Shown here in pieces: positions 17,832 to 58,537 of a stretch of 60,605 nucleotides of DNA. This stretch comes from a virus. Positions within the stretch are counted from its first letter, which is position 1. Each line of letters starts with the position of its first letter. A program made the position numbers and the translations under genes. The notes under the pieces are model-generated. The model saw only the letters and a list, made by a program, of their open reading frames with translations, did not search any database and was not told where the DNA came from. The stretch is from the IMG/VR virus record IMGVR_UViG_3300030329_002338, positions 1 through 60,605 of that record. One strand, given 5' to 3'.

Positions 17832-20800
17832 TTATTCTCTACGTTTTGCTAATCTTGGTACATTAGAAGGATACGAGAATGTTGGGTTTCTTCCTCTATC
17901 ACCCGTACCTACTCCTACAAGCGTCTTTGTTTGGTAGATTAGCTTTAACGCTTGTATCCATTTGGCAAAGGTATACCCTGTACCAATTGGGAATGTTCTA
18001 TGCATTGCACGAAGTATACGTTCGTGGTTCTTACTTAGTCGAGTATTCGTACTCATTAAGTATTGTATAAGTGCCTGTTTAAAAGATGGGTCACGGAATA
18101 CTGTATCGATATGCCGTTCTACATCATCCCATGTGGGCAGACCACCAGCACCCGAAGTAGTTGGGGAACTTGTCTGAGATATCTGTCTACTTCTTTGCGG
18201 TACTACAGTTCGATAAGCTCTTTGGTTTATTGGTGCTACACCGTTCACTTTAGCTACTAAAGAGGAAAGTGCATCAATATATTGGAAGGTTGCAATTTGT
18301 GCATCCTTACCCGCAATACCATCTTCACCAGTGGATGTTAATAAGGACTTTATAGCTGGCATGTCAGCCATATCTGGGTACACAGAACGTAGTCTTGGAT
18401 ACAGTGTCTCCCACATATCTTCAATACTCGTTCGGTCAGATACACCATTTCTAGCAAAATGCTCAAAGATTAGATTTCCCGGTACATCTGATTTGTCTCT
18501 ATAGAATCTATTAATCATCATAGTACGTATGTTTTGTGCAGCACTACTCATAGCAGGATTCTCACCAAGGTCAAATATTTTGTACCTTCTACCTACGTTT
18601 TCAGGAGTATTACCGCTTGAAAGTAATCCCGTTGTTGGGTTACCATAATCATCAACGTCAACAGGAATGTAATCAGAAATATTCTGATCATATCTATTTC
18701 TCTGCTTAAACAACTCTCTAGCAGCTTTAGCCGCTTCATACTCTCCAGCTTCATAAAGCTTGTTAACAATCGTTGATTGTGCTATAAAGGTTTCATGATC
18801 ATCTCTATAATATTTAACATAGTTACGATGCGTCATATTTGTAGCAGGTTCAAGTCCTATATATGGAAGTCCTTGTGCACGTAATTCATCCATGTTTGTC
18901 TTGAACTTCATAGCATCTTCAAACTCATCTAAAGTCTCTTCATCATGAATAATAGATTCTTGGTTTGGTGCCCAGAAATGTCGTTGTTCTTTCTCATCAA
19001 CACCTAATGCTAGATCTGAACGTAGTCTAGATACCTTACGCTCATTCTTACCATCACGCATATCTGCCAGTGTAATATCTGTTACAGTAGTAAGACGCTC
19101 ATCAATACGAGCTTGTAACTCTTCCATACTATAATCGTTGTGCTGCATCCAGACATTGCCGTGCTCGTTTTCAAGAAGCCATCGCATAACGTCATCTGCA
19201 TCAGGAGGCAACCACATTTGTTCTATAGCAGTTATACGTTCTGAAATAAGAATAGCGTTATCAGTATTGGTGAATACTGTAGCAATAGCCGTTAGTGGTT
19301 CTTGCATCAAATCTTCGATAGCTTCGTCAATAATGTATTCCAGACTAGCGTTACTTGCTTCATAAACTTTAAAGAGTTGGTACTCTTCTGGGTTTTCAGA
19401 CTTGAATTTGTTTTCCCACTCTTGCTTATCTTTGTACCATTGAGGCCAGTCAGCAACATTGTACCCATCAATGGTGTACTTGTTTCGGAACTCTTCAGAC
19501 CACGCCTTTGGAACTGCTTGATCTCTTTGGTTACGTATTGACTGTATGTGGTTCTGCATTAAGAAACCATTTAACATGCCAACAGTTATAAAGTTTAAGT
19601 CTAGTTCAGCGCCAACACCATACCGTTCCCGCCTGTTATCATTTAATTCTTTAATAGCTTGTTCAACTTCGGGTACATCAAACCCCTTAAACACACTACC
19701 TTGGTGTGCTAAGTCAATTATATCTTTAATCTTTACAACACCTGCTGCAGGATCATCAGCAAAGATAGTCATAAACATATCATTATTATACAAATTCTCT
19801 TCTATAATATCGTAGAATAGTTTGGGATTACCAAACTGTCTCTTATCTGCTTTATGATTAGGATGTATTACACCATACTTATTTTCAGGAAGACCAGTAT
19901 TAATACCAGTGAGATTGAAAATCTCTATCATATTTTCTGTATCAGCATCATCGTATGCTTTCTGTATTATAGAAAGGCTTGCCTGAAGTTCTGGATTTGA
20001 CATAATAAATGGATTTGCCATAGGGTTATCCATGCTTGCAGTAGGTACATCCACACGCAAGTTATCGAGTTCTACTTGCCTTTTACGTCTGTTCTCATCT
20101 ATAAAGTCATACCGCATAGAAGTAGCTAACGCACTATTTACTTGTTCTTGTGCATCTCCCCCTAATTTCTTCAAAGCAGTATACTCTCTTACATAAGGAT
20201 GTTTTTCAAAGTAGGCCGATAGCTCTTTATCTTTGGCACCCTTACTTATATTCTTTTTGAGTATGGTATAGTAACCAGTTAAGTAATCATATGGTGTAAA
20301 TTCTTTGCCTGTTTCAGGATCAACAACCATTCTATACCCAATATTAAGAGGGAACCCTGCCAAAACAGAAGTGGCATTTCTAATATTACTCTTTCGGTTT
20401 GCAGATTTAACAACCTCTATGTGTATAGGATTATCATATTCCTGTCCAAACGGTCCATTCATCCAGTGGAGAAGAGGGATATTGACAATACCTTTATGTT
20501 GTGTAACACCAAATTCACGCCAAGCTTTTGTAAGTTCTTCTACTTCTTCTGATTCTGGTCCATGTCTAAATGACATTGTTATGACTTGCTGTAGATACTC
20601 ATTGTGTATCTTCCTCTTGTCTGAGTTGGTTCGTATCATCTGAGAAGGCATCTTCCAAGGTATTAGCTTATCTATTACACCAAGTGTCACATCACCTTGT
20701 CTTGTTAATGGCTTGATAAACCGCTGCTCAAAGTCATAGTCTGGACCATATTGTCCTGTAAGACCTAATGTAGCTATGAAGAGTGGATTCAAGGTCATCT

Positions 20801-23800
20801 TTGCACCACCAGTCCAAAGTTCAGCTGCTTTACCGGCGGGACTATATTGTTTGAGTTGTGCTATTGGATCGTCACCCTCTTGTATACGCCCTGCAGTTGG
20901 GAAATAATCAAATTGATCATTGAAGAAAGCAATTGCATCAACATTCAATGTGGCACTATCTGAGAAATCCTTTACAGTTTTGAGCCAAGCGTCATTTTCG
21001 TCTGCACCAAGTGCGGTTGCCATTGATACAAATGGTTCTAACATCATACCAATTGGTATCTCTTCTTCTTGCCATTGAGATACTTCTCTTTCTCTATTAA
21101 TATCTCTATTTGTAGTTAAGAAATGAGACACGTAAGAAAGCAACGCAGGATTTTCTACTAAGGATATGGCAGTTTTTCCGAATGTTCGAGTCTGCCAAAT
21201 GTGCCATGGTCCTAACCATCTAATGAGGTAATCAAGATTATTCGTGTTACTGTAGTCGTGAAGTATCCAATCTCCGAAAGATTCACCATACTTACGTGCA
21301 CGTCTTCGCATCCTATTAGTTTCTAGGGAAAGTTCTTCTAATCCTTTAACTACTTCATCTGCTTCTTGTTTAGTAAGACTTACTTCGTATGCATCTATTG
21401 GCCGACTCTTTTCATAATCAAAGAAACCTTTAGGTGCATCTAAGGCAGTTGTTTCGAGTGCTCCCTCTGCTCTACCACGAGCACTTCGTATAGCATCTGA
21501 ACTTCTTTTAAACTGCGTCCAGATAGGTAATACGTCCTCAAGGCTGTTCCTACTATCACCATAGATAGGGAACCCTTTCTGCCATTGCTCTACCATGTAA
21601 GCACCTATATCTTTTAAAGCTCTTCTGCGTAGACTAATTTCTGCTCTAATTGCTGCTCTACCCTCAATACCTTCTTTTTCTAATTGTTTTGCTAAGTCTT
21701 TATAGGCAGATGATTCTGGATTAGAGAGGTCTTCAACTTGCTTAATAACTTTTTGTAACTCAGAAATAACAGTTTCCGGATACGCCCATTCTGGCGTTAC
21801 TAAGTCTAGCTCACCTGTGATACCTGACCAAGAGGCTTGGAAACCTGTCCAGTTATGCTGTCCACGCGATTCTTGTCTAAAGTCCCAACCAAGTTTCTTG
21901 GCGTTCTTTCGTAAATCATCCCGGTATCTAGCAAGTTTTAATACCCCTGCTGTGATGTCTTCTTCTGTAGCACCCTGTTTAACAAAGATACCAATTCTTC
22001 TACAATCAGTACCGTCAACATTTGCCCATGTGTCATCAGTAATAAACGGTTTATATCCTGCAGGAGCATTTTGCATAAACACACGGCCATTGATACCCTG
22101 TGCAGGTACGTCTTCTAGTAGTGTTCCATCCGTTCTACGGTGTGCTCCAAAACCAAACTGAGGTGGAAGAATTGCTTCATCTCCTCTGTAGTACCCATTA
22201 TTACCTAGCTGCCAAGGAGTTGCTTGTGTTGCAATCCATTCTTGTGCAGGACTAACTATTCGGCCACGTCGGTATGTATCACCAGTCTCACTTATATCTT
22301 TAGTTTGTCCTTCTGGAGTACTTATTTTCCACAAAGGAACAGAAAGCGTTCTTTCACTCTGTCTTCCTGTAATAGCCTGAAGTGGTATATGCTGCTCAAG
22401 ATTGTACTCTTGTGCAAAACTTATGACATCATCCCACGTATTAGCTCGTGGAATACCCCTATTGAAGATACCTTTTGAAGGATAGAATTCTTGTTGTCTA
22501 AGATCTTCTGGTAAATTCTTAATTACAACATTACTATTTATCGAACGAATCAACTCTGCATCTAGTTCAGTATCTAGGTGGAAACCATGAGCACGAATAG
22601 ACTGCGCCTCATCCCATCTTCTGATTGCTTCAACAAATGTAATTGCTAATGAATCGCCCCTAACTTGATTCTGAATTCCTAATGTTGGGTCTATCTCAGT
22701 AGGTATAATAGCATTTTTTAAGTCTTGTTTGAGGGCATCATTTAGTTTCTTCAAGAAAGACATCTTAGGTGCCCATTCAGTCATCCACCTTTCATATGCG
22801 TGTACATCTTGGTTGTGACTAACAGACCGTCCAACTCTGTCAGCAAGGTGCTGTCCATTCTTACGTAGGTCCAGCTCTATCGGACTAAATCCTAACTCAA
22901 CTAACAAATTATTTATTCGCGGAGCTGCATCTTCAACAAAGCCCTTGGTCTGACCATCCTTTCCAGTTCCTTGAAAAGATTCTTCAACAGCATTTCTAAA
23001 TTCTTCCAACCGTTCTCTTGCCTCTTTAGAAGGAATCGAACCTCTGAAGGGTCTATCTTGTCGCTCACCTAAGAGGTCATCAGCGAGTGCCTTAATATTA
23101 TCTATCTTATTGTTTGCAATTCTTTTTAAATCTGAGTCTAACTTAGCAGATTTTTGTGCTAATGAAGGGTCAGATAGTTTCAACATCGTTGCCCTATTTG
23201 CAAGAATCTCTACGTTCTCTGCAAATTCATACATCAACTTTGTCATTCTTGCTTTACTTAATGGTTGGTTAAATGGTGCATTTGCTTCATTAGAAGTATA
23301 AGGAGCACTTATTCTACCATCTTTTTGCCAAACACCATCTACACGATTATCAACTGTAAATCTCTGTGGCTGTACGACAGTTACAGTATTATCAAAGTCT
23401 CCAATATCATCGGGGTCAATCCACGCATACTTCCCATCTTCTTTTGCTTTAAGTGTAAATCGAACAAGGTCACCACTATCTACCATGTCGTTTATCTCAG
23501 CGTTAATTATCTCATCAGTAAATATACTCCTCTGTGGTTTTGTCAAAAAGTCACTAGAGATTGTCTTAGCATTAAACTGGAAGATATCTTCACCAAGATG
23601 CACAAGATTCCTATGTTGAATAATTTCAGTCAAGGTCTCTCTAATGATGTTCCCCTTTACAGAGTCTGGAACATTATCAAAGTCAACACCTTGCATCTTT
23701 TCTTTTAGTCGTTTCTGAATAGCAAACTTTAACTTACCAAATGATTGAAGTTCATTCTCTTCAACAATCTTACCAGACTTAATAGATTCCATCCGCATGA

Positions 23801-26800
23801 TACTTAATATCTCACGAACACGGTCAGCCGCTTCTTGTACTTCTTGCGGAACGTCACGCATAGTAATTGGAACACCAACTAAAGGATCCTCTTGGTCTAG
23901 TCCAAGGGGAACATTATCTAAAATACCAAGTGCGTCATCGATAAGACGCTCTATTGGCTGATACCCGAAAATATCTGTAAACTCTTGTACCTGACTTAAC
24001 CAATCCATTGTTGGTCTATCTGGAAGTATCGAAATCTGCTCACCACCCGGAGGCATTATTGCTACATCAGAGAAGATTTGTATCTCTCCAAGAGCTTCTG
24101 TATCATTGGCTACCATCCATGTATTATCTGAAATAGTTTCTTTTGGAATGGTGATGATTTTAATATCATCTTTATTTATAGCTAGAAGAGCATCGGCATA
24201 CGCATTGTCGTCCATACGCGCCCAGTTCCCCTCCCCTGTTCTATAAGTGGGTTTCATAAATATAGGGTCTACAAGTGGGTTACCTGCTTCTAATGCTCCT
24301 CCTTTGGATTGCAATCTTGCTTTAGCATTATCTTCTCTCCCTTTGTAGTATTGTGCAAGTATCTCATCTTTGAGAAGAATACTTTCTCTTTGTTCTCTAA
24401 GATTAATTATTGCTTTTTTATCTTTAGTAGGTATCTCTGAATAAGCTGGTCTGTCTGCCGGATCTACAGTCTTATAAAAATCATTATACTCATCGACACT
24501 AATCTCCCGTGCTCTTATTTGTTTACGAATACCAGAGAGTCTCTCAGTTACACGTTTAAACCATTCAGATTCAGAAAGTTGCATAGTATCAAAGTTTAGG
24601 TTAGAAACAATAGGATCATTTTTATCTGTAATCCCCGCCCTTACTCTATCTTCTGCTGCATACTTTTTAATTAAAGCGACCACTCTACTAAGGGGAGTAT
24701 TAAACAGGTCAACTCTTCTTCCCATTTCAAGTTCAAGATTTTCCGCAGCTTGTCTACTTGTAGTTGTGGAAACATTCCTATTAATAGGACCACCCAGACC
24801 ACCACCTGCGAGTATCTTAAGATTATCTTCTACTACTGCTAAGATTCCTTTTCGCTCATCAATTGCAGAACCACGACTTGTAACGTGATATAACTCATTT
24901 GGTAGTTCAAGCCATGTTACTCGTCTTGCTCCTTGTCTTGGCACCCCGTCTTCACCAAAAGGGTTTGCCCACGGTGGGATAACTTGATCAGGGTCAACAG
25001 TCTGTTTTAGTCCGTATTGCTTCATACGGTCATTAATCATCTGATTTGTTATCTGTAAATCAGGCTCGTCCATAATATTAAAGAGTTCACGTAGGTAACC
25101 ATACCGAGCTTCTAAGTACGCCTCTGGGTCATTAATTGTTTCTCGAATAAGTAAACGAGCCTCTTCCATATCTCTAATAGCTTTAGAGGCAGACATCATT
25201 GCTTGTAATGCATATCCGTGTGCAGCTTCTACTTGTGATTCAGTAAGTGCGGCTTCGTTCCCACCGGAAAGGTAGGTCTTTACCTGTGTGAATACACTAT
25301 CATACACTTCAAATAGTCGGGAGTGTAGTTCGTTTTGCAACTCTTCAGGTGACAAATCAAAAATATCATCTGCTTGTCCATCTAGCACACGTTGCTCAAC
25401 ATGTCTAGCACGTTCAAGTTCTTCTGAAACATCTAAACCAGCTACAATAGCAACCTTTCGTGCTCGTTCATACACGTCACCAATAAGCTGTTCAATTGCT
25501 TGTTGTAGCGCATGAGATGCTGCCAAAGGATCCGGAACGGTAACTTCTTTTACTTCACCTGTCGCAGGATCTATATAGGTTTTTCTAGCTTGTCCAGTAT
25601 GATTGATCATGTCATCCATTAAAGGTTTAAGAAGCATATCTATATCTGCATCTTGCAAACCGTGCACATCAAATCCAGCTTCACGTAAGAGTGTTGCTGG
25701 ACTCTTAGGCACACCAATACTAAACTTTATTTGATCGTCAACATCTACAAGAGCTTGTACTACTCGAATTAAATCTTGATCAGTCAATACAGTCGGATTC
25801 TGGAAGTGTTCAAGTATCTCTCTCATAAGTGTACCAGAAGGGTCTTTTTCGTCTAGTATGCTAAGTGCTGCAGGAGCACGTTCAGCTAAAATTCTTCGTA
25901 ACATTTCTGGGTTTGACATTCTGCGATAGAAGCGGAATGTAGCCTTGTCTACTATATTTCTTCTGTCTACACTCTCTACGAAACCAGATAGCTGCCTTGC
26001 ATAGAAGAAAGGAGTACCACCAAATCCCGGAAACAATCCGTCACCATATGCTCTTCGAGCTAACCTTTTTACAAAACTACGTTGTGATAAAACCTTCTCA
26101 TCACGAGAACCTACAGCTACATCAAACATTTGTTTAGTAACACTTTCACCTCGTATAGGACCAAGACTTGCCTCGCTTGTTCCAGTAGACCTACTAGGTT
26201 GTTGTCTGGTTGCAAAATCTACCCCATTAAACAAAGAGTTAAATCGAGCCTGAGTTATCGAAGTAGCATCTGAAAGAGGTGTACCACTTAGTGCCATTAA
26301 TGCTTTGTTAGCAGACCAGTTTCGTATTACGAATGACGGTCGCGCTAAGAATATTCTTGATGCAAAAGAGTTTAACTGGTTTTGAATAGCTAATGCGCCT
26401 GTTGCATCTTCTGCTAAATTAAAGTGATTCTCATCCATGAGAACCTTTGTCACTTCTCGAACTATCTCTTGGTTAAATTCTGCATTCCAACGTGGTAGTG
26501 CATCTTCGTTTTCAGGAAGATTCTTCAATGAACGAACTTTATCAAGATCAATCTGTCTTAAGATGTCCATTGCTCTTGCTCTATCTAAATGTAAGACATC
26601 ATCTATCTTATTCTCAATTAGCCAATGGAGCAGAGCTACAGGATGATCTTTAACTTTTTGTAAGTCATTCATCATACCACGAATAAATACAATTCTTTCA
26701 GGGGCTGTTAAATATTTAAACTGCTCTTGGAATTGTAATAGTATGCCTGTAAATTCACGCAAAGTAGTTTGTGCTGCAGTTTGAACAGCATCTCGCATCG

Positions 26801-29800
26801 GACCTTGACCAGTCTTTGCAAAGAGCCACCTTTTAAGAAGCTTCCCTGCATCGATAAGGGGAACTAGCATTCCATCTCTATCAGGTTGTACACCCTCTGT
26901 TAATCCTGACACTAAATCTTCAACTAATTCTGGGCCAAATTTATTCATTCCATCATTTGCTTTGTTTAAAGTAGCAAGGGCTAAGTTAGCTCTGTTGGCT
27001 CGTGCTAGTGTAAAGACATTCTTTATGGAGTATTCTAGGTCTATATATTGATCTGCTAAGGTCACAGCCTTACCCAGTATATTTGGGTCAAGATCTGTTG
27101 TGTCTAGAAGGAACTCAAACTCGTCTAGGAATTCTGGACCCATTGCAGGGGCAGTTCCCCCTATCTCAGTAGGCACCTGTCCTCTAGCGTTATCTACAGC
27201 TTCTTGGAGTCTGTGTAGTAACTTTGTGATTTCATCTATCTCTTTATCAAGAGTAGCTACATCAGAAGGCATATCGCCTCTACCAACAGTGTATCTTCCT
27301 CTAAAGGCTTGTGGAATTCTTCCAACAAATTCATAAGGAAAAAGCTTACTAATAATCCCTTGTGGTAATTCTTTTTTCCTAATTCCAATAAGGTTGCTAG
27401 CTACTTCTTCTATTTGACCAACAGGGATTTGTCCAGCACCAAAACCCACTTCGTAGGTCTCGTCGCTTAATAGTGCTAAACCTTCATCAATCATATTTAG
27501 TTTGTACTCAGGAAGCTTCTTTGACCACGTTTCGTAATCAAGATTTCCTCGAAGTATCGCATAAATATCATCAACAACATCATCAAACTTTCTTATTGCT
27601 ATAGGCATATCTATCGGTTTACCTGTATCTGGATCAAGAGCTATTTTGCCTACACCTTCTCCATGTTCTTTCCTCAGACGATCTGCATCATCTTTTAACT
27701 TTCTAAATACAGGATTTCTAAGGAGTGCTTTTCGTACTTGTGCCCTAGATAATTTCGTGCCTTTTCCAATGAATTTCTGCCAAAGCGAAGGTGGCTTGAT
27801 TGGTAAATCTCTATTTTTCCCAGAAGTTACTATTATACTATTTATCTTCCTGTTTTTGGTTTCTGTTAGAGCAGCAAGTCGGCTTGTAAGATCTTCTATG
27901 TGCCGTACCGCATTTTTATATGACACCGTAGATTTACCACCAACTACGCTTAAGAAATTATTTAGACCTTTTGAAGCTCGTATCAAACGTGGAGCACTTC
28001 TAGCAGCAAGACCTGATTTAGTTAACGCTTTTCCAACTAGACCACCACCAAGGTCTAAGGGAGCAAGAATACTCATTTGCCATCCTGCTCTTATATGTCC
28101 AGCCATATTTACAGCTTCATCAATAGCATCAGGTATACTGTAATTTTCTTCAAGCACTAACCTATTGAAATGTGCCATATTTGGATAATGAAGTGTACGA
28201 TTTTCTTGCCAGTGCATTTCAAATAAACCACCACCAGCATCTTCTATCATCAGTCTTTCGTTATCATCAGCAATGTGCTCATAGATATAGGCGTAATCTG
28301 TACGAATTTTTCCGCCCTCTCTAGAATCTTCGGCTACTAGACGTGTTTCAATATCCATATAACCAGCGAATGTTCCATCAAAATCCAGATCAGGAGCAGA
28401 CAAATTAGGAAATGCTTCTTCAAAAGATTTGGTAATATTATATTTACTAGCTTCTAGATTGTTTACAGAAGGCATATTTTCAGCGTAGAGTTTACCTATA
28501 TAAGGAATTTTATTAACAACCCAGTTATTAATATTGTGTAGACCTTTGAAATAACCCCATATGGCACCATCTATTTGATCATTCATAGTAGGATCTGTTG
28601 TTCGTTGTATATGCTTTTGAGCTTCTTCATCCTCTGGACGTAACTTACCAGCAAGATATTTACCAACATAGTTAGCAATACCTTGTCGTGCGAGTGGTCC
28701 TACAAAAGGGTTTGGATTAAATGACCGAAGTATGGACATAGCAGTATTAGGTTTACTACTAAAATCACCACCAGTTATATTTATCTTTTTACGATGATAT
28801 CTATTCCAAGGCATGTCTCTTACGTGACCCATATTCTGTGCAGGTCTTGCCATTGGATCTTTTGACAAAGCACGATAAATACCATCTACGGCATATTCAT
28901 CAGCCCATATCAATCCTCTAAGAGGCCACCCAAATCCATACCTGACGAGACCTGATAAACCCCATATACGCTCGTACCAGTGGTTTGGATCTCGTGGTTC
29001 AAATCCTTGTCGAACTAAGAAATCGTCTGTAAGATACTTACCGTATTGTCCATCTACTGTGAATTCACGGGGAACACCCATTGCTCTATCCGGGGGCCAT
29101 GTTCTACCAGCACTCTTGTAACGTGCTCCTTGCTCTTCCAACCATTTTTTAACAGCTGCTTCGGCTTCTTTCTTCTTATCACCTTCACGAGCTAACTCAA
29201 CTATCTGGCCTGAAATACCCGTTTTACCCCCATGTCTTAAAGTATGTTGGAGCATACGTTGTTGTTCAGTACTTAAACCAAGATTTTTCCAGTGATCATG
29301 CGCAGGTTCACCTCCAAGATTAAAGTTCCCTAACTTCATTATCCCTGCATCACTAGGAGTCACCATAAGTGCTTCTAGAAAAGTACGTGTATTTAAGTCA
29401 TGAAACTCACCTATACGTCGCATAGCCAAAATGGTTTCAGGCTCTAAAGACATTATATAGTAGTTTTCATTTCCTTGGTTTTCGGGCAGAGAACGTAATA
29501 TATCAGTACGTGTGTTATTGATTTCTTGCTTTGTAAGAGTATCTTTATTTCCAAACTGTTTAAGGAAATCAGTACTATCCTGAAGTACAAGCGTGGTGTA
29601 CATTCCGTTATCAAACTTATCCAAATCACTATCATTGATAAATCTTTGAAACTGATTTGCTGATGTTCCAGAGGTCTGTGTGTTGTCTTGAAATATAGAA
29701 GAAAATGCGTTACCAATGGAATTAAATATCCCACCAAAGAACCCATGAGATTTATCTTTAACTGGATTTTCTGGTTGTGGTAAAGAAGGTTTGTCTTGAA

Positions 29801-30428
29801 TAAACTTCGATGTCTTTAAAGCAGCTAACAAATCATTAGATGCATCACCAGTATCAACTACGTAGTCAATGGTTGCAGCAAGCAGCTCTGATTCTCTCTC
29901 AGGTGTTCCCATTCTTCTAGTAATGAAACTTGAGGTCTCATCATCATTTTTAGCAGCAAAATGGTTATAGGCCAAGTTGACCAAGTAATCACGATCTTGT
30001 GTAGGCATCTTCTGATATGCATCCATAACAATTTGTTTTGTCAAGTCTCGACCAGATGCGTTACTGATTGCTCTTGAATAAGCTTGCTTATTTGCAACAG
30101 GTGAAACTTGAGTACCATAGTTGACAATATAGTCTGTCACTCTAGTACCAATATCGTATCGTCCAGAAGATGTGTAATCTTGTATATTTCTTTTTGCTTT
30201 AGCTATTGCTGAGTCTAAAGTAACATCAATTGGTTGATTGACAGATGACGCTGTAGTAGGTGATCGCATCTCTCGTCTATGCGCTTCATCTTCAAGCAAC
30301 AAATCTACATAACTGGTTTCTGAACCAGTATTAGCTGTCGGAACAGGGTTATTTCTAACATAATCTGTTAGACTTCCGTCTGCTTCCTGATCTTGTAATT
30401 GTTTTAAAAGCGTTTCAAAATCGGACAC
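17832..30428 (-). CDS. Giant virion protein, 4198 aa, polyvalent-like with possible ART domain
   Basis: One uninterrupted 12.6-kb gene, a fifth of the genome, between the portal-proximal genes and the scaffold. It is mostly helical and charged with several aromatic, amphipathic patches (around 483-525, FGWPLRGLIWADEYAV; 1360-1380, RPSFVIRNWSANKALMAL; 3066-3110, IRWLGPWHIWQTRTFGK). Around residues 1845-2130 it has ELYHVTSRGSAI, an STTTS strand and GEIQIFSD, an order like ADP-ribosyltransferase folds. Such giant multi-domain proteins resemble the large polyvalent proteins thought to be packaged and injected to protect phage DNA or modify the host; an internal ejection protein is the other main option. 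No polymerase motif or complete lysozyme domain is seen. The coding assignment is certain, the function is inference. Confidence 0.85.
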   Translation of the reverse strand: MSDFETLLKQLQDQEADGSLTDYVRNNPVPTANTGSETSYVDLLLEDEAHRREMRSPTTASSVNQPIDVTLDSAIAKAKRNIQDYTSSGRYDIGTRVTDYIVNYGTQVSPVANKQAYSRAISNASGRDLTKQIVMDAYQKMPTQDRDYLVNLAYNHFAAKNDDETSSFITRRMGTPERESELLAATIDYVVDTGDASNDLLAALKTSKFIQDKPSLPQPENPVKDKSHGFFGGIFNSIGNAFSSIFQDNTQTSGTSANQFQRFINDSDLDKFDNGMYTTLVLQDSTDFLKQFGNKDTLTKQEINNTRTDILRSLPENQGNENYYIMSLEPETILAMRRIGEFHDLNTRTFLEALMVTPSDAGIMKLGNFNLGGEPAHDHWKNLGLSTEQQRMLQHTLRHGGKTGISGQIVELAREGDKKKEAEAAVKKWLEEQGARYKSAGRTWPPDRAMGVPREFTVDGQYGKYLTDDFLVRQGFEPRDPNHWYERIWGLSGLVRYGFGWPLRGLIWADEYAVDGIYRALSKDPMARPAQNMGHVRDMPWNRYHRKKINITGGDFSSKPNTAMSILRSFNPNPFVGPLARQGIANYVGKYLAGKLRPEDEEAQKHIQRTTDPTMNDQIDGAIWGYFKGLHNINNWVVNKIPYIGKLYAENMPSVNNLEASKYNITKSFEEAFPNLSAPDLDFDGTFAGYMDIETRLVAEDSREGGKIRTDYAYIYEHIADDNERLMIEDAGGGLFEMHWQENRTLHYPNMAHFNRLVLEENYSIPDAIDEAVNMAGHIRAGWQMSILAPLDLGGGLVGKALTKSGLAARSAPRLIRASKGLNNFLSVVGGKSTVSYKNAVRHIEDLTSRLAALTETKNRKINSIIVTSGKNRDLPIKPPSLWQKFIGKGTKLSRAQVRKALLRNPVFRKLKDDADRLRKEHGEGVGKIALDPDTGKPIDMPIAIRKFDDVVDDIYAILRGNLDYETWSKKLPEYKLNMIDEGLALLSDETYEVGFGAGQIPVGQIEEVASNLIGIRKKELPQGIISKLFPYEFVGRIPQAFRGRYTVGRGDMPSDVATLDKEIDEITKLLHRLQEAVDNARGQVPTEIGGTAPAMGPEFLDEFEFLLDTTDLDPNILGKAVTLADQYIDLEYSIKNVFTLARANRANLALATLNKANDGMNKFGPELVEDLVSGLTEGVQPDRDGMLVPLIDAGKLLKRWLFAKTGQGPMRDAVQTAAQTTLREFTGILLQFQEQFKYLTAPERIVFIRGMMNDLQKVKDHPVALLHWLIENKIDDVLHLDRARAMDILRQIDLDKVRSLKNLPENEDALPRWNAEFNQEIVREVTKVLMDENHFNLAEDATGALAIQNQLNSFASRIFLARPSFVIRNWSANKALMALSGTPLSDATSITQARFNSLFNGVDFATRQQPSRSTGTSEASLGPIRGESVTKQMFDVAVGSRDEKVLSQRSFVKRLARRAYGDGLFPGFGGTPFFYARQLSGFVESVDRRNIVDKATFRFYRRMSNPEMLRRILAERAPAALSILDEKDPSGTLMREILEHFQNPTVLTDQDLIRVVQALVDVDDQIKFSIGVPKSPATLLREAGFDVHGLQDADIDMLLKPLMDDMINHTGQARKTYIDPATGEVKEVTVPDPLAASHALQQAIEQLIGDVYERARKVAIVAGLDVSEELERARHVEQRVLDGQADDIFDLSPEELQNELHSRLFEVYDSVFTQVKTYLSGGNEAALTESQVEAAHGYALQAMMSASKAIRDMEEARLLIRETINDPEAYLEARYGYLRELFNIMDEPDLQITNQMINDRMKQYGLKQTVDPDQVIPPWANPFGEDGVPRQGARRVTWLELPNELYHVTSRGSAIDERKGILAVVEDNLKILAGGGLGGPINRNVSTTTSRQAAENLELEMGRRVDLFNTPLSRVVALIKKYAAEDRVRAGITDKNDPIVSNLNFDTMQLSESEWFKRVTERLSGIRKQIRAREISVDEYNDFYKTVDPADRPAYSEIPTKDKKAIINLREQRESILLKDEILAQYYKGREDNAKARLQSKGGALEAGNPLVDPIFMKPTYRTGEGNWARMDDNAYADALLAINKDDIKIITIPKETISDNTWMVANDTEALGEIQIFSDVAIMPPGGEQISILPDRPTMDWLSQVQEFTDIFGYQPIERLIDDALGILDNVPLGLDQEDPLVGVPITMRDVPQEVQEAADRVREILSIMRMESIKSGKIVEENELQSFGKLKFAIQKRLKEKMQGVDFDNVPDSVKGNIIRETLTEIIQHRNLVHLGEDIFQFNAKTISSDFLTKPQRSIFTDEIINAEINDMVDSGDLVRFTLKAKEDGKYAWIDPDDIGDFDNTVTVVQPQRFTVDNRVDGVWQKDGRISAPYTSNEANAPFNQPLSKARMTKLMYEFAENVEILANRATMLKLSDPSLAQKSAKLDSDLKRIANNKIDNIKALADDLLGERQDRPFRGSIPSKEARERLEEFRNAVEESFQGTGKDGQTKGFVEDAAPRINNLLVELGFSPIELDLRKNGQHLADRVGRSVSHNQDVHAYERWMTEWAPKMSFLKKLNDALKQDLKNAIIPTEIDPTLGIQNQVRGDSLAITFVEAIRRWDEAQSIRAHGFHLDTELDAELIRSINSNVVIKNLPEDLRQQEFYPSKGIFNRGIPRANTWDDVISFAQEYNLEQHIPLQAITGRQSERTLSVPLWKISTPEGQTKDISETGDTYRRGRIVSPAQEWIATQATPWQLGNNGYYRGDEAILPPQFGFGAHRRTDGTLLEDVPAQGINGRVFMQNAPAGYKPFITDDTWANVDGTDCRRIGIFVKQGATEEDITAGVLKLARYRDDLRKNAKKLGWDFRQESRGQHNWTGFQASWSGITGELDLVTPEWAYPETVISELQKVIKQVEDLSNPESSAYKDLAKQLEKEGIEGRAAIRAEISLRRRALKDIGAYMVEQWQKGFPIYGDSRNSLEDVLPIWTQFKRSSDAIRSARGRAEGALETTALDAPKGFFDYEKSRPIDAYEVSLTKQEADEVVKGLEELSLETNRMRRRARKYGESFGDWILHDYSNTNNLDYLIRWLGPWHIWQTRTFGKTAISLVENPALLSYVSHFLTTNRDINREREVSQWQEEEIPIGMMLEPFVSMATALGADENDAWLKTVKDFSDSATLNVDAIAFFNDQFDYFPTAGRIQEGDDPIAQLKQYSPAGKAAELWTGGAKMTLNPLFIATLGLTGQYGPDYDFEQRFIKPLTRQGDVTLGVIDKLIPWKMPSQMIRTNSDKRKIHNEYLQQVITMSFRHGPESEEVEELTKAWREFGVTQHKGIVNIPLLHWMNGPFGQEYDNPIHIEVVKSANRKSNIRNATSVLAGFPLNIGYRMVVDPETGKEFTPYDYLTGYYTILKKNISKGAKDKELSAYFEKHPYVREYTALKKLGGDAQEQVNSALATSMRYDFIDENRRKRQVELDNLRVDVPTASMDNPMANPFIMSNPELQASLSIIQKAYDDADTENMIEIFNLTGINTGLPENKYGVIHPNHKADKRQFGNPKLFYDIIEENLYNNDMFMTIFADDPAAGVVKIKDIIDLAHQGSVFKGFDVPEVEQAIKELNDNRRERYGVGAELDLNFITVGMLNGFLMQNHIQSIRNQRDQAVPKAWSEEFRNKYTIDGYNVADWPQWYKDKQEWENKFKSENPEEYQLFKVYEASNASLEYIIDEAIEDLMQEPLTAIATVFTNTDNAILISERITAIEQMWLPPDADDVMRWLLENEHGNVWMQHNDYSMEELQARIDERLTTVTDITLADMRDGKNERKVSRLRSDLALGVDEKEQRHFWAPNQESIIHDEETLDEFEDAMKFKTNMDELRAQGLPYIGLEPATNMTHRNYVKYYRDDHETFIAQSTIVNKLYEAGEYEAAKAARELFKQRNRYDQNISDYIPVDVDDYGNPTTGLLSSGNTPENVGRRYKIFDLGENPAMSSAAQNIRTMMINRFYRDKSDVPGNLIFEHFARNGVSDRTSIEDMWETLYPRLRSVYPDMADMPAIKSLLTSTGEDGIAGKDAQIATFQYIDALSSLVAKVNGVAPINQRAYRTVVPQRSRQISQTSSPTTSGAGGLPTWDDVERHIDTVFRDPSFKQALIQYLMSTNTRLSKNHERILRAMHRTFPIGTGYTFAKWIQALKLIYQTKTLVGVGTGDRGRNPTFSYPSNVPRLAKRRE

Positions 30429-41616: not shown

Positions 41617-41692
41617 CGCGGGGTGGAGCAGTGGTAGCTCGTCAGGTTCATTGTCTGAAGGTCGTCAGGTTCGATTCCGGCCCCCGCTACCA
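41617..41692 (+). tRNA. tRNA-Met (CAT), initiator-like but atypical
   Basis: 76 bases with an encoded CCA end. The acceptor helix pairs GCGGGG-type bases with CCCCGC while C1 faces T72, the mismatch at 1-72 that marks bacterial initiators. The D stem is GAGC/GCTC, the anticodon CAT is at 41649-41651 in the loop TTCATTG, and the T loop is TTCGATT. Deviations from a standard fMet tRNA: the anticodon stem (TCAGG/TCTGA) lacks the three G-C pairs of initiators, position 37 is T rather than a purine, and the T stem has an extra A (GTCAGG against CCGGC). Overall similarity to bacterial fMet tRNA is still evident. Confidence 0.85.
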
Positions 41693-43569: not shown

Positions 43570-43722
43570 TTCGCATGGGCTAATAAAAAAAGTTAGCATG
43601 TGCTAATAAATAAAATTAGTATAGGCTAATGCTTGGCGTTAGCATGGGCTAATAATATTTGTTAGTGCTACCTAATAATAATTGTTAGCATGTACTAACA
43701 TTAAATGTTAGGGGTAAAGAAA
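43570..43722 (+). repeat. Left iteron array (23-bp period)
   Basis: Seven units start at 43570, 43593, 43616, 43639, 43662, 43685 and 43708, exactly 23 bp apart. The consensus is TTAGCATGNGCTAAT followed by an AT spacer; each core is an imperfect palindrome. The first is slightly changed (TTCGCATG...) and the last keeps only TTAG. Regular spacing of a palindromic core is typical of iterons bound by a replication initiator, partition protein or repressor. A C-rich run (CCCGCCCGCCCGCCCC) lies just before the array. Confidence 0.85.
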
Positions 43723-43763: not shown

Positions 43764-44135
43764 CTAAGAATTTTTCTTAGCTTGCTTTTTTAGTTCGGCT
43801 CTTTCCTTCCTGACCGCCTCAAATGGAGACAATCCCAGAGTGGATACGTAAGCTTGCGCCAGTGGTGACAACTCTACCTCCTTAGCATTTTTGCCAAATT
43901 CCTTAGCGTGCGCCTCTGGGTTGAGTCTATCATCCCAATCCACCATGTACCGATTATCCCAATCAGCGATACCAGTTTTCTGGTCGTAGGAAGCATAGCC
44001 AAATTCCCTAGAGTACACAACATTTATGTCTTTATTATGTGCCCTCATGAATTCTTCCAGTGCCTCCGACTGCCACACGGAAACCTTGCCCCCATTCTTA
44101 ACAAAACCGATAACAATTTTTTTTGAGTTTGACAT
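43764..44135 (-). CDS. Lone minus-strand gene inside the iteron region, 123 aa
   Basis: It has its own promoter (44179-44208), a good ribosome site (AAAAGGAGAAATTA) and its own terminator. The protein starts with a strand-like KKIVIGFVKNGGKVSVW, then a helix (SEALEEFMRAHNKD), a DWDNRYMVDWDDRLNP motif and a basic C-terminal helix (VRKERAELKKQAKK). No family recognised. Flanked on both sides by the same 23-bp repeats, it is a natural candidate for an iteron-binding or origin regulator, but nothing in the sequence proves this. Confidence 0.7.
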   Translation of the reverse strand: MSNSKKIVIGFVKNGGKVSVWQSEALEEFMRAHNKDINVVYSREFGYASYDQKTGIADWDNRYMVDWDDRLNPEAHAKEFGKNAKEVELSPLAQAYVSTLGLSPFEAVRKERAELKKQAKKNS

Positions 44136-44242: not shown

Positions 44243-44350
44243 TTAGCACATATGTTCTATTTTGTGTTAGCACACACTAATCTTTTTTATTAGCATACCC
44301 TAACTTCTTTTGTTAGTATGCCCTACTCTTTTTTGTTAGCCCACACATAC
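44243..44350 (+). repeat. Right iteron array (23/24-bp period)
   Basis: Five units start at 44243, 44267, 44290, 44313 and 44336 with cores such as TTAGCATACCCTAAC and TTAGCACACACTAAT, separated by T-rich spacers. They match the left array (TTAGCA...CTAAT) in core and period, so the two arrays belong to one system that brackets the lone minus gene. Confidence 0.8.
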
Positions 44351-46013: not shown

Positions 46014-46140
46014 GAGATATATAATACACGTATACGTGTGAGTGTATGTGTATGTGTGTATATATGCGGGTATGTGTATACCCGTGTGTACGTGTGCGCG
46101 TGTGTGTATGCGCGTATATGTATATAGAAAAAGTTGGTTG
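46014..46140. repeat. TG-rich simple sequence with palindromes
   Basis: About 110 bases of purine-pyrimidine alternation (GTGTATGTG, GTGTGCGCGTG), including the perfect palindrome ACACGTATACGTGT (46026-46039) and the hairpin GGGTAT/ATACCC (46068-46083). Such sequence can adopt Z-DNA or cruciform structure. No gene is visible. Confidence 0.6.
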
Positions 46141-46144
46141 GTCT

Positions 46145-46206
46145 TACCCCCCGAAGGGGGGTATCCAGTCTGCCGGTCAGTGTTTCTGTGCCGGTTTTGG
46201 ACTGAC
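46145..46206 (+). ncRNA. Leader motif L2
   Basis: An 8-bp hairpin TACCCCCC/GGGGGGTA with a GAA loop (46145-46163), then TCC, AGTCTGCC and GGTCAG (46175-46180). GTCAGT pairs with ACTGAC at 46201-46206, closing a second loop that holds TTTCTGTGCCGG. It is followed by a four-codon ORF (ATG 46207). The stretch 46141-46307 has no other gene. Confidence 0.6.
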
Positions 46207-46240: not shown

Positions 46241-46292
46241 CAGACCCCGAAGGGGTCTGTCCGGCTGGAAGGTCAGTGTTGCTGGAGGCAGC
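46241..46292 (+). ncRNA. Leader motif L3
   Basis: Hairpin CAGACCCC/GGGGTCTG with GAA loop (46241-46259), TCC, GGCTGGAA and GGTCAG (46271-46276). CTGAC at 46234-46238, just upstream, can pair with GTCAG, alternative to the pairing seen in L2. GCTG/CAGC forms a small hairpin after it, ending in the AAAGGAG ribosome site for the gene at 46308. Confidence 0.6.
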
Positions 46293-46307
46293 GAAAGGAG
46301 TTTACGT

Positions 46308-46532: not shown

Positions 46533-46780
46533 TGCCATTCGTAGAGTACGGTAAACACGGGATGAAGCGATGGGTTAATACCTATCAGGTTGGTGATGTA
46601 TTACACGCTGACCATGCGGCTAAGGATACGGAGGAACGCTGTACAGAAACTAAGTTAGTTACTAAACAGGGTTACTGGCCGCCGGAGTACAGTAGGGATA
46701 CAGCCTATCGTATAGTGCAATACTTTAGCTGCGTCGAATGTGGTGTAGCTATAGAGGATAAGGAGTTTATAGATGGGTAA
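46532..46780 (+). CDS. Small cysteine-containing protein, 82 aa
   Basis: ATG 46532 is preferred over 46517 because GGAGG lies just before it and TAATG couples it to the upstream gene. CVEC near residue 67 and an earlier cysteine at 37 may bind zinc. Product starts MPFVEYGKHGMKRWVN. Function unknown. Confidence 0.6.
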   Translation: MPFVEYGKHGMKRWVNTYQVGDVLHADHAAKDTEERCTETKLVTKQGYWPPEYSRDTAYRIVQYFSCVECGVAIEDKEFIDG

Positions 46781-47123
46781 TTTATACTTATTTCAGTGTG
46801 AACTTAATCTAATCGCTGATGGGTTAAAAACTTATGAAGACGTTATAGATTTTAATCATGCTGATGAACATACAAAGTCTATAATGGCACAGCTTTGGGA
46901 CGTATATGCAGAGCCTCCGTCTCAGTCTTGGTACACATATCAAGGATGTTGGGAAAGTGAGGATGAATTTGCTGCGGATTTAGCAAGTGAAACAGGGTTT
47001 CTTGATAGTGATTGGAGTACATACTTTGATTATGACCTGTGGACTAATGACTTATTCATAAGTGACTACGCGTCATTAGACTGTAGGCAATGTGGTGATT
47101 TAATGATAGTGAGGTACGAGTAA
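46773..47123 (+). CDS. ArdA-like antirestriction protein, 116 aa
   Basis: The second half follows the ArdA C-terminal pattern: CWESEDEFAADLASETGF, then WSTYFDYDLWTNDLFISDY (compare YFDYEAFARDL in ArdA), and ends CRQCGDLMIVRYE. ArdA proteins mimic DNA and block type I restriction enzymes; the strong negative charge seen here fits. The N-terminal domain is shorter than in full ArdA. Similarity judged by eye. Confidence 0.6.
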   Translation: MGNLYLFQCELNLIADGLKTYEDVIDFNHADEHTKSIMAQLWDVYAEPPSQSWYTYQGCWESEDEFAADLASETGFLDSDWSTYFDYDLWTNDLFISDYASLDCRQCGDLMIVRYE

Positions 47124-47827
47124 TGGAAACTAAACGCAAAACAATTAGGATACCTAATACTGGGGCATGGTTGTCTCAGATAGTAATGGATGCCATGGGT
47201 TATGGAGGGGCCGAATGGCGTAGGTATAAGATGCAAGGTATCATACGGTTAGTAACCCGTGATGGTACGAGTAAGCCTGAAGTATGTAGTAGGGCTAGGG
47301 ATGAGGACTTATGGGTAATGACCGGGACTATGGTATATATTGGTAGGTCTATAGAGATTGAGGTATTAGGAGAGATTATGGAAGGCACTGCAAAGTGGAC
47401 AACAGGTAAGGACGAAGGTCAAACTGCTGTTAGCACTGAGGAAAGAGATAAACTGCTAAGGGATTATTGGAATCATGCTAGGTATGTTAGTCGCGTCAGG
47501 GAACTATCTCGTGAGTCTATTGAGCGTATGCTTAATAGGTCTGAGAAACTAACCGAAGCGATTATAAATACAGTGTACCCTGCTATTAGGCTTATGGCAG
47601 ATGGCAGTTGGTACATAGATAAGGAAGGTAACGCTCATGTAGGTTACAATCCACCAAAGACAGCTATGATTATGTATAGTCACAACTGGAAATCTAGTGA
47701 GAAGTGGGATGACTTCCGTAAGGCAGAGGTCGCACTGACTGAGGATGTACGGTTATACATACGTAACAATATAGAACAACTCGCTGATGCTAGAGAGATA
47801 GCAAAGATAGTAAAACTGATGGCCTAG
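47123..47827 (+). CDS. Hypothetical protein, 234 aa
   Basis: Start overlaps the previous stop (TAATG). Basic N-terminus (ETKRKTIRIPNTG), a beta-like part up to about residue 85 (TMVYIGRSIEIEVLGEIM) and a long helical C-terminal half with LYIRNNIEQLADAREIAK. No family recognised. Confidence 0.6.
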   Translation: METKRKTIRIPNTGAWLSQIVMDAMGYGGAEWRRYKMQGIIRLVTRDGTSKPEVCSRARDEDLWVMTGTMVYIGRSIEIEVLGEIMEGTAKWTTGKDEGQTAVSTEERDKLLRDYWNHARYVSRVRELSRESIERMLNRSEKLTEAIINTVYPAIRLMADGSWYIDKEGNAHVGYNPPKTAMIMYSHNWKSSEKWDDFRKAEVALTEDVRLYIRNNIEQLADAREIAKIVKLMA

Positions 47828-47830
47828 CAC

Positions 47831-47886
47831 CAGCCCCGAAGGGGCTGTCCACTGGGTCGGTCAGTTTCTATGGCAGCAGGACGGTG
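47831..47886 (+). ncRNA. Leader motif L4
   Basis: Hairpin CAGCCCC/GGGGCTG with GAA loop (47831-47847), TCC, ACTGGGTC and GGTCAG (47859-47864). AGCACC just upstream (47826-47831) pairs with GGTGCT (47883-47888), which would enclose the whole motif in an outer helix. It precedes the gene at 47927 by 40 bases. Confidence 0.6.
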
Positions 47887-47926
47887 CTGTCAAGATAAAA
47901 AGATTAGTCAACGGAAGGATAATAGA

Positions 47927-48214
47927 ATGGCTAAAAGTTTTGTTGAAGTACCACAAGATGCGGTACGAATTAGAGTCGGTGATAACACCGAGCTGGTTGC
48001 TTGGCAATCAGAGTATAATGGGGAGAAGCAGATTAGCTTCGGCAAATCTACCCAATACAAAGAAGGTGGAGATGTCTACACTAAGATGGCTCCTCCTATC
48101 ACAGCTTCTACATTCCACATGCTAGTTAACCTAGCTAACGGACACCTCTTCGGCGGTGACGTAGATGCTCACGACGGTGTAGCTATTGAAGCTCCACGTC
48201 GGGGTGAACGCTAA
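47927..48214 (+). CDS. Hypothetical protein, 95 aa
   Basis: The start is set at ATG 47927 after CGGAAGGATAATAG; the upstream in-frame part overlaps leader L4 and is not protein-like. The product (MAKSFVEVPQDAVRIRVGDN, then QISFGKSTQYKEGG) looks beta-rich with a helical end. No family recognised. It ends at the large structured RNA region. Confidence 0.65.
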   Translation: MAKSFVEVPQDAVRIRVGDNTELVAWQSEYNGEKQISFGKSTQYKEGGDVYTKMAPPITASTFHMLVNLANGHLFGGDVDAHDGVAIEAPRRGER

Positions 48215-48229
48215 TAAAGTCTAGTCAGT

Positions 48230-48808
48230 GGGAGCCTACCGTCAATAGGTTCCCCCTTACTAGTGAGATTCCTAGCGAAAATTCACAACTTTTTATTAGA
48301 GGGTTGTGCACGTATCTGACGTTAGGAGTCTCACTAGTAAGGTCTTGATAGCATATGACGATTGTAGTTTATTAATTTAACAATTAATTATTATTAAGAC
48401 TTTACTATAGTAAGGCTAATAGGATATGTAACTCAACACAGATATGCTTGAGTTTTTTTCAAACATAGCTCATTAGCCTTACTACCTCATAAGGGTGGAC
48501 AAGTAACGTGACTTCCTCACACCCCCAAGTTACTTGTACATCCCTATGAGGTACCATAATTGCTCCTTATTATGAGACCTCTACCATGTTGGTGCTAGGT
48601 CGGCAGGTAAAAAGGGTTAAGCCATTTGCTGAGTATCCTTACCTGTCGGCCTAGTATTCTATTAGTTACAAGTGGATTCAGTAGTTACTTATCCGATGGT
48701 AAAATGCCTAGCATGACCTCCATGGATATGACTAACGGCGAACTCCTTGCCATTGCTGAAGCGTAGTGCACACTAAGGGCGCTGATGCTGCTACTGGATC
48801 CACTTGTA
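48230..48808 (+). ncRNA. Large ornate structured RNA region (about 580 nt)
   Basis: A gene-free stretch made of consecutive long helices. H0: GGGAGCCTA/TAGGTTCCC (48230-48254). E1: 14 perfect bp CCTTACTAGTGAGA/TCTCACTAGTAAGG (48255-48342) extended by 9 more pairs, with CACAAC/GTTGTG inside. E1b: GTCTTGATA/TATTAAGAC (48342-48400). E2: 12 perfect bp AGTAAGGCTAAT/ATTAGCCTTACT (48409-48483) with AACTCAA/TTGAGTT inside. E3: 23-base arms with about 20 pairs (48485-48551). A 6-bp hairpin (48555-48574). E4: 16 bp CTAGGTCGGCAGGTAA type (48595-48654). E5: 18 bp (48667-48808). GU pairs and bulges fit RNA. Strand is inferred from flanking genes. Length and style recall ROOL/GOLLD-type phage RNAs. Confidence 0.7.
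48667..48808 (+). ncRNA. Element E5: 142-nt multibranch RNA domain
   Basis: An 18-bp closing helix TACAAGTGGATTCAGTAG with CTACTGGATCCACTTGTA (one GU) encloses a bulged hairpin TATCC-G-ATGG/CCAT-GGATA (48690-48728) capped by ATGC-CTA-GCAT, a short hairpin GGCGA/TTGCC (48737-48751) and GCG-TAGT/ACTA-CGC (48761-48782). Total length and closing-helix length equal those of the element at 58376-58517. Confidence 0.65.
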
Positions 48809-48832
48809 TCTAAAAGAATGGGAGGAAGATAC

Positions 48833-49048
48833 ATGCAAGTAGGTATTGAAGCACACAATGATATGACTCTAATTGAGATCATACAAGCAGTGGAGGATGG
48901 CTTCACTGACGGAGGGGTGGAAATTTCCTTAGAGGAGGAAGTATGTAGACATGACATAGAAGCCATGGCTATACAGATATGGAAAGATATGTATGGGGAC
49001 TTTCGGATTGAAGGGCTATACCACGTAGCTAGAGAGGACAGAGGTTAA
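48833..49048 (+). CDS. Small acidic protein, 71 aa
   Basis: ATG 48833 is chosen because GGGAGGAAGATAC precedes it; an earlier in-frame ATG (48785) lies in the closing helix of E5 and has no ribosome site. The product (MQVGIEAHNDMTLIEIIQAV) is acidic with a histidine/cysteine pair in the middle (VCRHDIEAM). No family recognised. Confidence 0.6.
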   Translation: MQVGIEAHNDMTLIEIIQAVEDGFTDGGVEISLEEEVCRHDIEAMAIQIWKDMYGDFRIEGLYHVAREDRG

Positions 49049-49467
49049 TGACTGACTATGCAACAGTAAGAAACAAGGTAGAGACAGATGATACTTTAGT
49101 ATTTGCTGCGGGGCATGAGACCTTAGATGGTAGACCGCATAAGATTACTAAAGAACAACTGGATGCTATCCCTGACTTCATCCTAAGATGGGATGATTAT
49201 ATACCTGTCGATGCAGTACGTGCATGGATAGAGTATCACCAAGAGGGACAGAGTGAGATACATGACCAAGGTTTATTCATAAGTTCTGCTAGTTCAGATG
49301 AGTACTTTGCTAAGGTAATCTATGAGTATGATGAGTCATTAAACAAACTCGATGATGTCTTAGCATTTGCTATTGATTGGGAAGTTGTAGCGCATGAGCT
49401 ACTTAGGGAGGACTATATTAAGTTGGAATACAATGGTAGTAACTATTACTTTAGGAGTGTTGCATGA
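49048..49467 (+). CDS. ArdA-like acidic protein, 139 aa
   Basis: Starts on the previous stop (TAATG). Strongly acidic; the last third reads LAFAIDWEVVAHELLRED followed by YIKLEYNGSNYYFRSV, close to the ArdA ending (iDWexxAxEL...YYxFR). ArdA proteins imitate DNA to inhibit type I restriction. The middle (IPVDAVRAWIEYHQEGQ) is also acidic and helical. It would be the second ArdA-like protein of this region. Confidence 0.6.
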   Translation: MTDYATVRNKVETDDTLVFAAGHETLDGRPHKITKEQLDAIPDFILRWDDYIPVDAVRAWIEYHQEGQSEIHDQGLFISSASSDEYFAKVIYEYDESLNKLDDVLAFAIDWEVVAHELLREDYIKLEYNGSNYYFRSVA

Positions 49468-58323: not shown

Positions 58324-58352
58324 TTGCCAAATGTCTGCAGATATGTTATAAT
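58324..58352 (+). promoter_or_regulatory. Promoter in front of structured element E6
   Basis: TTGCCA (58324-58329), 17 bases, perfect TATAAT (58347-58352). The start near 58359 is 17 bases before the 18-bp helix of E6. The promoter's spacer lies in an inverted repeat (ATGTCTGCA/TGTAGACAT, 58331-58365) that could be an operator. Confidence 0.7.
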
Positions 58353-58375
58353 TATGTGTAGACATATTGGTGACC

Positions 58376-58517
58376 TCTTTGGAAGTTATCAAGGATTATT
58401 GAGTCTCATACTTACATGATTCCCCAATCATATGAGACAACATTTAAGGTGACGCGAAGGGGGAACTCGCTGAATAAGTCCTTACGTGCCTAGCACATTC
58501 TTGATAGTTTCCAAAGA
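58376..58517 (+). ncRNA. Element E6: 142-nt structured RNA or leader
   Basis: An 18-bp closing helix (TCTTTGGAAGTTATCAAG with CTTGATAGTTTCCAAAGA, two GU) encloses hairpin A TCTCAT/ATGAGA plus ATGATT/AATCAT with a CCCC loop (58404-58437), hairpin B GCGA/TCGC with an AGGGGGAAC loop (58454-58470), and hairpin C GTGC-CTA-GCAC (58486-58496). It lies between the promoter and the Cas4-like gene in the 238-base gap 58300-58537. It may be a regulatory leader or a free RNA. Same total and closing-helix length as E5. Confidence 0.65.
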
Positions 58518-58537
58518 AGTCATCAATAGGATCAAAT

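Follow-up and report, generated by a model that had tools for sequence, protein, structure and literature searches.

Long RNA hairpins arrayed in an intergenic gap of an unclassified phage, with modules gained and lost among relatives

A gap of ~620 bases between two plus-strand genes of a phage genome folds nearly entirely as long RNA hairpins, and it is close to certain that selection acts there at the RNA level on the plus strand. The genome, an IMG/VR virus record 60,605 bases in length that was analyzed in full (the window), belongs to an unclassified phage known from metagenomes only. The hairpins are arranged as separate modules, and a further module carried by relatives, E4b, occurs as a free-standing unit in an unrelated phage. 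We tentatively read the array as a cassette in which the phage carries several small structured RNAs, probably separated by host RNase III and acting, in part at least, in trans. To our knowledge, few structured non-coding RNA families have been found in phages, and the best known of them, ROOL and GOLLD, have no assigned function. Three or more new candidate families, each with a conserved core, come from this locus (E5, E58, and E4b), and its modular array shows how phage RNAs of such kind are gained and lost.

The gap is bordered on the left by the stop codon of a gene for 95 aa (47927-48214, plus strand) and on the right by the ATG at 48833 of a plus-strand gene for 71 aa, preceded by the SD sequence GGGAGG at 48820-48825. 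Neither flanking gene had a match in Pfam. No plausible gene was found inside 48214-48833, where the open reading frames reaching in were short and overlapped the stems. Genes for DNA polymerase, helicase, exonuclease, and a Sak4-like protein lie to the right of the array on the plus strand, and the packaging and head genes of the record are on the minus strand. The single tRNA gene of the record, tRNA-Met at 41617-41692, is located 6.6 kb upstream of the array. Since the terminase was at best 33% identical to those of phage records, there is no close sequenced phage; a search for the DNA polymerase in 84,980 prokaryote genomes also gave no match. An ArdA-like antirestriction gene (46773-47123; PF07275, 28.7 bits, barely above the cut-off) is present 1.1 kb upstream of the array, and one ORF of 4,198 aa (17832-30428, minus strand) adjoins the structural genes.

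Stems were searched for over the whole record with a scan that penalized GU and AC mismatches equally. A sequence-only reading had described the region as gene-free, built of long helices, and had named five of them (E1-E5); this symmetric scan found all five where they had been placed, the description as a whole was borne out, and elements E0, E1b, and E3b were added (Table 1). Stems scoring at least 11 numbered 15 in the record, of which six fell in 48255-48819 and one at 58365-58528, the site of a module termed E58. These two places also contained the five highest stem scores of the record (22, 21, 19, 18, and 15). The alternating GT-rich repeat at 46024-46126, which folds strongly by composition, was left out of the stem comparison. 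The predicted fold energy of 48214-48820 on the plus strand was -238.9 kcal/mol versus -150.8 ± 5.0 for shuffled sequences (z = -17.6), while the minus strand of the same region had z = -10.1 relative to shuffles. Repeated independently with 40 shuffles, the comparison yielded z = -13.3 for the plus strand and -6.7 for the minus strand. In a genome-wide scan of 1,614 windows of 150 nt, the lowest value (z = -9.6) belonged to 48226-48375 on the plus strand.

Table 1. Positions of hairpin modules and the associated promoter in the window and in contigs of other phages
Feature	Record	Position	Strand	Description
E0	window	48221-48263	+	first hairpin; core stem GGGAGCCUA/UAGGUUCCC (48230-48238/48246-48254)
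E1	window	48255-48342	+	23-bp closing stem (48255-48277/48320-48342), apical hairpin
E1b	window	48335-48407	+	16-17 bp stem; absent from the sequence-only reading
E2	window	48408-48484	+	13-bp perfect stem, 22 with mismatches (48408-48429/48463-48484)
E3	window	48483-48553	+	25-position stem (48483-48507/48529-48553): 22 WC, 1 GU, 1 AC, 1 other
E3b	window	48554-48578	+	small hairpin CAUAAU/AUUAUG in the predicted fold; kept in L005 with G-U
E4	window	48591-48658	+	18-20 bp closing stem; inner stem 48595-48654, GU ends outside
E5	window	48655-48820	+	closing stem of 29-31 positions; 48656-48819 in the symmetric scan
E5 core	window	48728-48789	+	nearly invariant AUGACUAACGGCGAACUCCUUGCCAUU ... 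UAGUGCACACUAAGGGC
Promoter	window	58324-58352	+	sigma-70-like, TTGCCA-17-TATAAT with TG, 11/12; directly upstream of E58
E58	window	58365-58528	+	29-bp closing stem (32 positions in the symmetric scan), invariant core AAGGUGACGCGAAGGGGGAACUCGCUGAAUAAGUCCUUA
E4b	L005	2886-2990	+	inserted before E5
E4b	L012	1103-1221	-	array relative
E4b	L027	3928-4127	-	unrelated phage
E4b	L028	2075-2255	-	unrelated phage

There is hardly any spacer between the helices, and adjacent arms partly overlap. The extended stem of E0 (CUAGUcAGU.../...CUUACUAG) overlaps the 5' arm of E1, whose closing stem comprises 21 Watson-Crick and 2 GU pairs with zero mismatches, and the 5' arm of E1b has 8 nt in common with the 3' arm of E1. 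Such overlaps of 8-9 nt, between extended E0 and E1 and between E1 and E1b, persist in several genomes. The outermost pairs of neighboring modules should therefore compete, and the structure given here is one of several at module borders. Sequences of the CUUACUAG/CUAGUAAGG type recur in E0, E1, E1b, and E2 (48221-48484), making strand exchange between neighboring hairpins possible. The core of E5 contains a stem GGC/GCC that covaries (GGU/ACC in L005), a candidate pairing of UCCUU (48744-48748) with AAGGG (48775-48779), which is conserved and hardly varies, and the palindrome GUGCAC at 48766-48771.

Scans of 2.9 million viral contigs recovered the relatives L005, L008, L009, L010, and L012, as well as short contigs with E58 only. 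L005 is 94% identical in the protein of a gene near the array, and the DNA polymerases of L008 and L009 are 84% identical to that of the window. L010 begins within E5, and the other four contigs carry the array. The whole array is present in L005, where E4b is inserted in addition between E4 and E5. L008 and L009 contain E0, E1, E4, and E5 and, in the place of E1b, a shorter 10-bp counterpart; E2 and E3 are missing from both and are confined to the window and its nearest relative, L005; the two are identical in the sequence of E3 and have exchanged the apical part of E2. In L012, the closing stem and core of E5 are nearly unchanged and E4b is present, and the position of E0/E1 is occupied by long hairpins of unrelated sequence, the E0 counterpart being 20 bp long. 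The 71-aa gene follows E5 in the window, L005, and L009, while in L008 and L012 another ORF is inserted ahead of it. In all four relatives the array region folded better than expected on the plus strand (z from -7.3 to -9.0), each time more strongly than on the minus strand. The architecture of the array persists where its sequence does not. E1 and E2 retain their stems through exchange or deletion of the apical parts, so the stem appears to be what matters in these two. The modules are of two kinds, those in which the stem counts (E1 and E2) and those with an invariant inner core (E5, E58, and E4b); the cores of E5 and E58 sit within covarying closing stems.

Pairing in the named stems was counted on alignments of three to six distinct sequences per module. 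All 120 cells of the 30 pairs in E0 and E1 were paired across four genomes, with five double-change pairs, one of them in E0; E1 alone accounted for four double-change and two single-change pairs, none broken. In E4, 72/72 cells of 18 pairs were paired in four genomes (two double-change and three GU-type single-change pairs). The 32 pairs of E5 were 100% paired in five sequences with three double changes, the outer pairs covarying, and the 36 pairs of E58 were all kept in six distinct sequences, including three double-change and six single-change pairs. As a control, sliding the partner by one to three columns lowered the pairing to 25-53%. When outer and inner pairs of the RNAalifold consensus were considered together, double-change pairs numbered five in E0 and E1, two in E4, nine in E5, and four in E58. 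Over all genomes, the symmetric scan yielded 42 GU against 11 AC wobbles, counts that are non-independent because the sequences are related and some stems overlap, and one-sided stem changes were mostly AU/GU or GC/GU switches, hardly ever changes to AC. This bias favors RNA of the plus strand, the direction of the flanking genes. The earlier proposal that the region is folded RNA rather than DNA repeats, which would have been undermined by arms lacking compensatory changes in relatives, thus agrees with the compensatory changes in E0, E1, E4, and E5 and with the plus-strand GU bias.

The distribution of E4b extends beyond the relatives of the phage. A search of viral contigs with a 19-base core of E4b matched L005 and L012, as well as L027 and L028 (57.9 and 81.6 kb), which are two contigs of one other phage. 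Its DNA polymerase is only 27% identical to that of the window, no terminase match was obtained, and no relative of the neighboring genes was found in the stretch read. A 19-base match alone could be due to chance; the alignment spanning the entire ~115 nt of E4b, with a mean column identity of 78%, argues otherwise. A covariance model of E4b found one copy in each of the four contigs and none in the window. The module contains a variable helix, GAUUGGC/GCCAGUC in L005, GACUGAC/GUCAGUU in L012, and GGCUCAC/GUGAGUU in L028, which crosses the helix UUCCUGU/ACAGGAA and so forms a pseudoknot. Seven of seven pairs of the pseudoknot helix are kept among three distinct sequences, with two double and three single changes, which is evidence for E4b being a folded RNA domain and more than a hairpin. 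A coding origin was rejected: a short open frame is common to L005 and L012 but is interrupted by a stop in the latter, and RNA pairs are preserved through the changes. In L028, a 12/12 promoter motif, TTGACA-16-TATAAT with TG, lies ahead of E4b, and a terminator motif of 14 pairs follows, with no gene between E4b and the terminator, which is the layout of a small RNA gene. Because the window does not contain E4b, this evidence for a free-standing unit concerns a sister module. E4b is small and free-standing enough for direct expression and testing.

E58 is of the same style as the array modules and is conserved in all relatives reaching the site. A candidate loop-loop pairing, UUCCCC/GGGGAA, hardly varies and is CCC/GGG in some relatives. 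The promoter preceding E58 is of the strong extended -10 type and is conserved in relatives as TTGCCAA...TGTTAYWAT. A conserved alternative helix of 13 bp, AAGGGGUUGCCAA/UUGGUAGCCUCUU (in the letters of L010), was observed at 58324-58388. It would compete with the closing stem of E58 only in read-through transcripts and could possibly act as a switch. A 19-mer of E58 also occurred in a Balneolaceae genome (L026), as a simple CCCCCTTCGAAGGGGG hairpin with the rest of the core missing, and was regarded as a chance match.

No known RNA family accounted for the array. Of all Rfam models, including ROOL and GOLLD, only tRNA matched the window at gathering score; permissive thresholds added chance matches only, each under the cut-off of its family. 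The ROOL and GOLLD models gave no match to 47800-49100 even at E ≤ 5, and no Rfam family matched E4b. The likeness to ROOL and GOLLD suggested by the sequence-only reading was thus not upheld, the array being a row of independent modules that differ in presence among relatives rather than one enclosed, conserved, multi-branched molecule, while its suggestion that the region could be a new class gains support. That reading had overlooked the ribosome-binding site right behind the last module, the similar module E58, and E4b. BLASTN comparison of the region and of E5, E4b, and E58 with 50,697 phage records returned short chance words only, among them a match beside the sspC gene of Bacillus phage Goe11 that was inspected and set aside. 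A retron non-coding RNA was dismissed, as no RVT_1 reverse transcriptase was found in the record (control genomes were positive), and so was a MITE or other repeat element, as the arms differ between modules and the record contains no further copies beyond self matches.

ROOL RNAs are borne by phages and prophages, large, and almost wholly structured, with unknown function (PMC12286853). The array resembles them in being phage-borne, large, and almost wholly structured, but it is not part of a tRNA island and consists of linear, separable modules with turnover rather than one conserved pseudoknotted fold. A hallmark of ROOL is assembly into an RNA-only nanocage. GOLLD, whose solved structure comes from a marine sample and is encoded downstream of Met-tRNA (PMC12286853), is likewise large and phage-borne, and the present phage has tRNA-Met too; however, this tRNA is single and distant from the array, and no universally conserved 3' region is present beyond E5. 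The RNase III site R1.1 of phage T7 is a single hairpin of ~60 nt that contains an internal loop (PMC6121014). The hairpins of the array share with such sites in T7 early mRNA a location between operon genes just upstream of ribosome-binding sites; in contrast to R1.1, six or more longer hairpins fill one gap, some modules have invariant cores, and one family is common to an unrelated phage. The cabRNA of staphylococcal phages also has long double-stranded parts, but it comes from terminase genes (PMC10686824), whereas the array occupies a non-coding stretch of its own and its stems covary.

In the cassette that we propose, the array would be transcribed on the plus strand within the rightward gene block in the order E0-E1-E1b-E2-E3-E4-E5, with E4b added in some relatives. 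A promoter or terminator belonging to the array was looked for around it in the window and not found. Host RNase III would most likely cut the long closing stems, whose sequence could vary freely as long as they remain paired. A minimum of 22 nt has been used for RNase III targets in Escherichia coli (PMC5371410). Double-stranded stretches of about 22 positions or more are present in E1 (23), E3 (25, two of them mismatched), E5 (29), and E58 (32 positions), and those of E1b (16), E4 (18-20), and E2 (13 perfect) are shorter; the number of stems near or above this size suggests cutting by RNase III, as in T7 early mRNA (PMC6121014). Cutting would free the modules and give the mRNA behind them a defined 5' end immediately ahead of its ribosome-binding site. 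E4b with its pseudoknot and E5 and E58 with candidate pseudoknots, all of them modules with an invariant core, may then act as small RNAs, at least partly in trans. A broader proposition is that phages possess a repertoire of exchangeable small RNA modules with compact, pseudoknotted cores, some of them enclosed in long covarying stems; these would be combined in multi-RNA cassettes, separated by RNase III, and transferred among unrelated phages, every module forming a new family with a trans-acting role of its own during infection. This proposition seems doubtful at present.

Alternatively, the hairpins could be cis-acting elements of the operon serving processing, stability, or translation control, with E5 and E58 as 5' leaders and no free RNA acting in trans, which we consider somewhat unlikely. 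The distance to the next ATG is 13 nt from the end of E5 (ATG at 48833) and 10 nt from the end of E58 (ATG at 58538, of an exonuclease-like gene), and both modules end at ribosome-binding sites, which would also suit cis leaders; lying directly behind a promoter, E58 would form the 5' end of that mRNA. Retention of stems with swapped apical parts, as in E1 and E2, is expected of a pure double-strand substrate, and T7 R1.1 is a precedent (PMC6121014). On the other hand, the solitary E4b of L028 has no gene to lead before its terminator, one processing site needs fewer than six or more large hairpins, and the variable gene after E5, with the ORF inserted in L008 and L012, counts slightly against a leader of a single gene.

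It is improbable that the array is one large ornate RNA working as a whole, for example as a ROOL- or GOLLD-like oligomer. A phage-borne stretch of ~600 nt that is almost fully structured would suit such a molecule, and the palindrome of E5 together with G-rich and C-rich loops could form kissing contacts, but even the most permissive search left the ROOL and GOLLD models unmatched, no tRNA island is present, and relatives lose, add, or replace whole modules, unlike one fixed molecule. Equally improbable is a decoy, that is, long double-stranded RNA occupying host RNase III or a dsRNA-sensing defense protein, for which only pairing would matter. The arms indeed vary freely with pairing kept, and a bacterial cyclase is known to sense phage RNA with double-stranded parts (PMC10686824); however, a pure decoy would not need the invariant cores of E5, E58, and E4b, and no link to a defense system was seen for the region; the nearby ArdA-like gene acts on restriction and not on RNA. 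An origin as DNA palindromes (cruciforms, a replication origin, or template-switched arms) with no RNA role is very improbable. By carrying changes of one arm over to its partner, template switching can mimic compensation, and the minus strand, too, folds better than chance. However, template switching would erase the GU wobbles that outnumber AC in the array, one-sided changes to AC are rare, and no cruciform explains the covariation of the E4b pseudoknot.

Two other kinds of repeated elements were observed in the record. Clusters of the imperfect palindrome TTAGCATGNGCTAA, with ~7 copies at 43570-43715 and ~4 copies at 44255-44345, flank a minus-strand gene of unknown family (43764-44135) and are iteron- or operator-like. 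A repeated intergenic leader element, in which a hairpin of the CCCCGAAGGGG type is followed by GGTCAGT, is located at 46147-46200, 46243-46300, and 47832-47895; it is also found in L012 at ~1790-1870 and is possibly another structured RNA motif.
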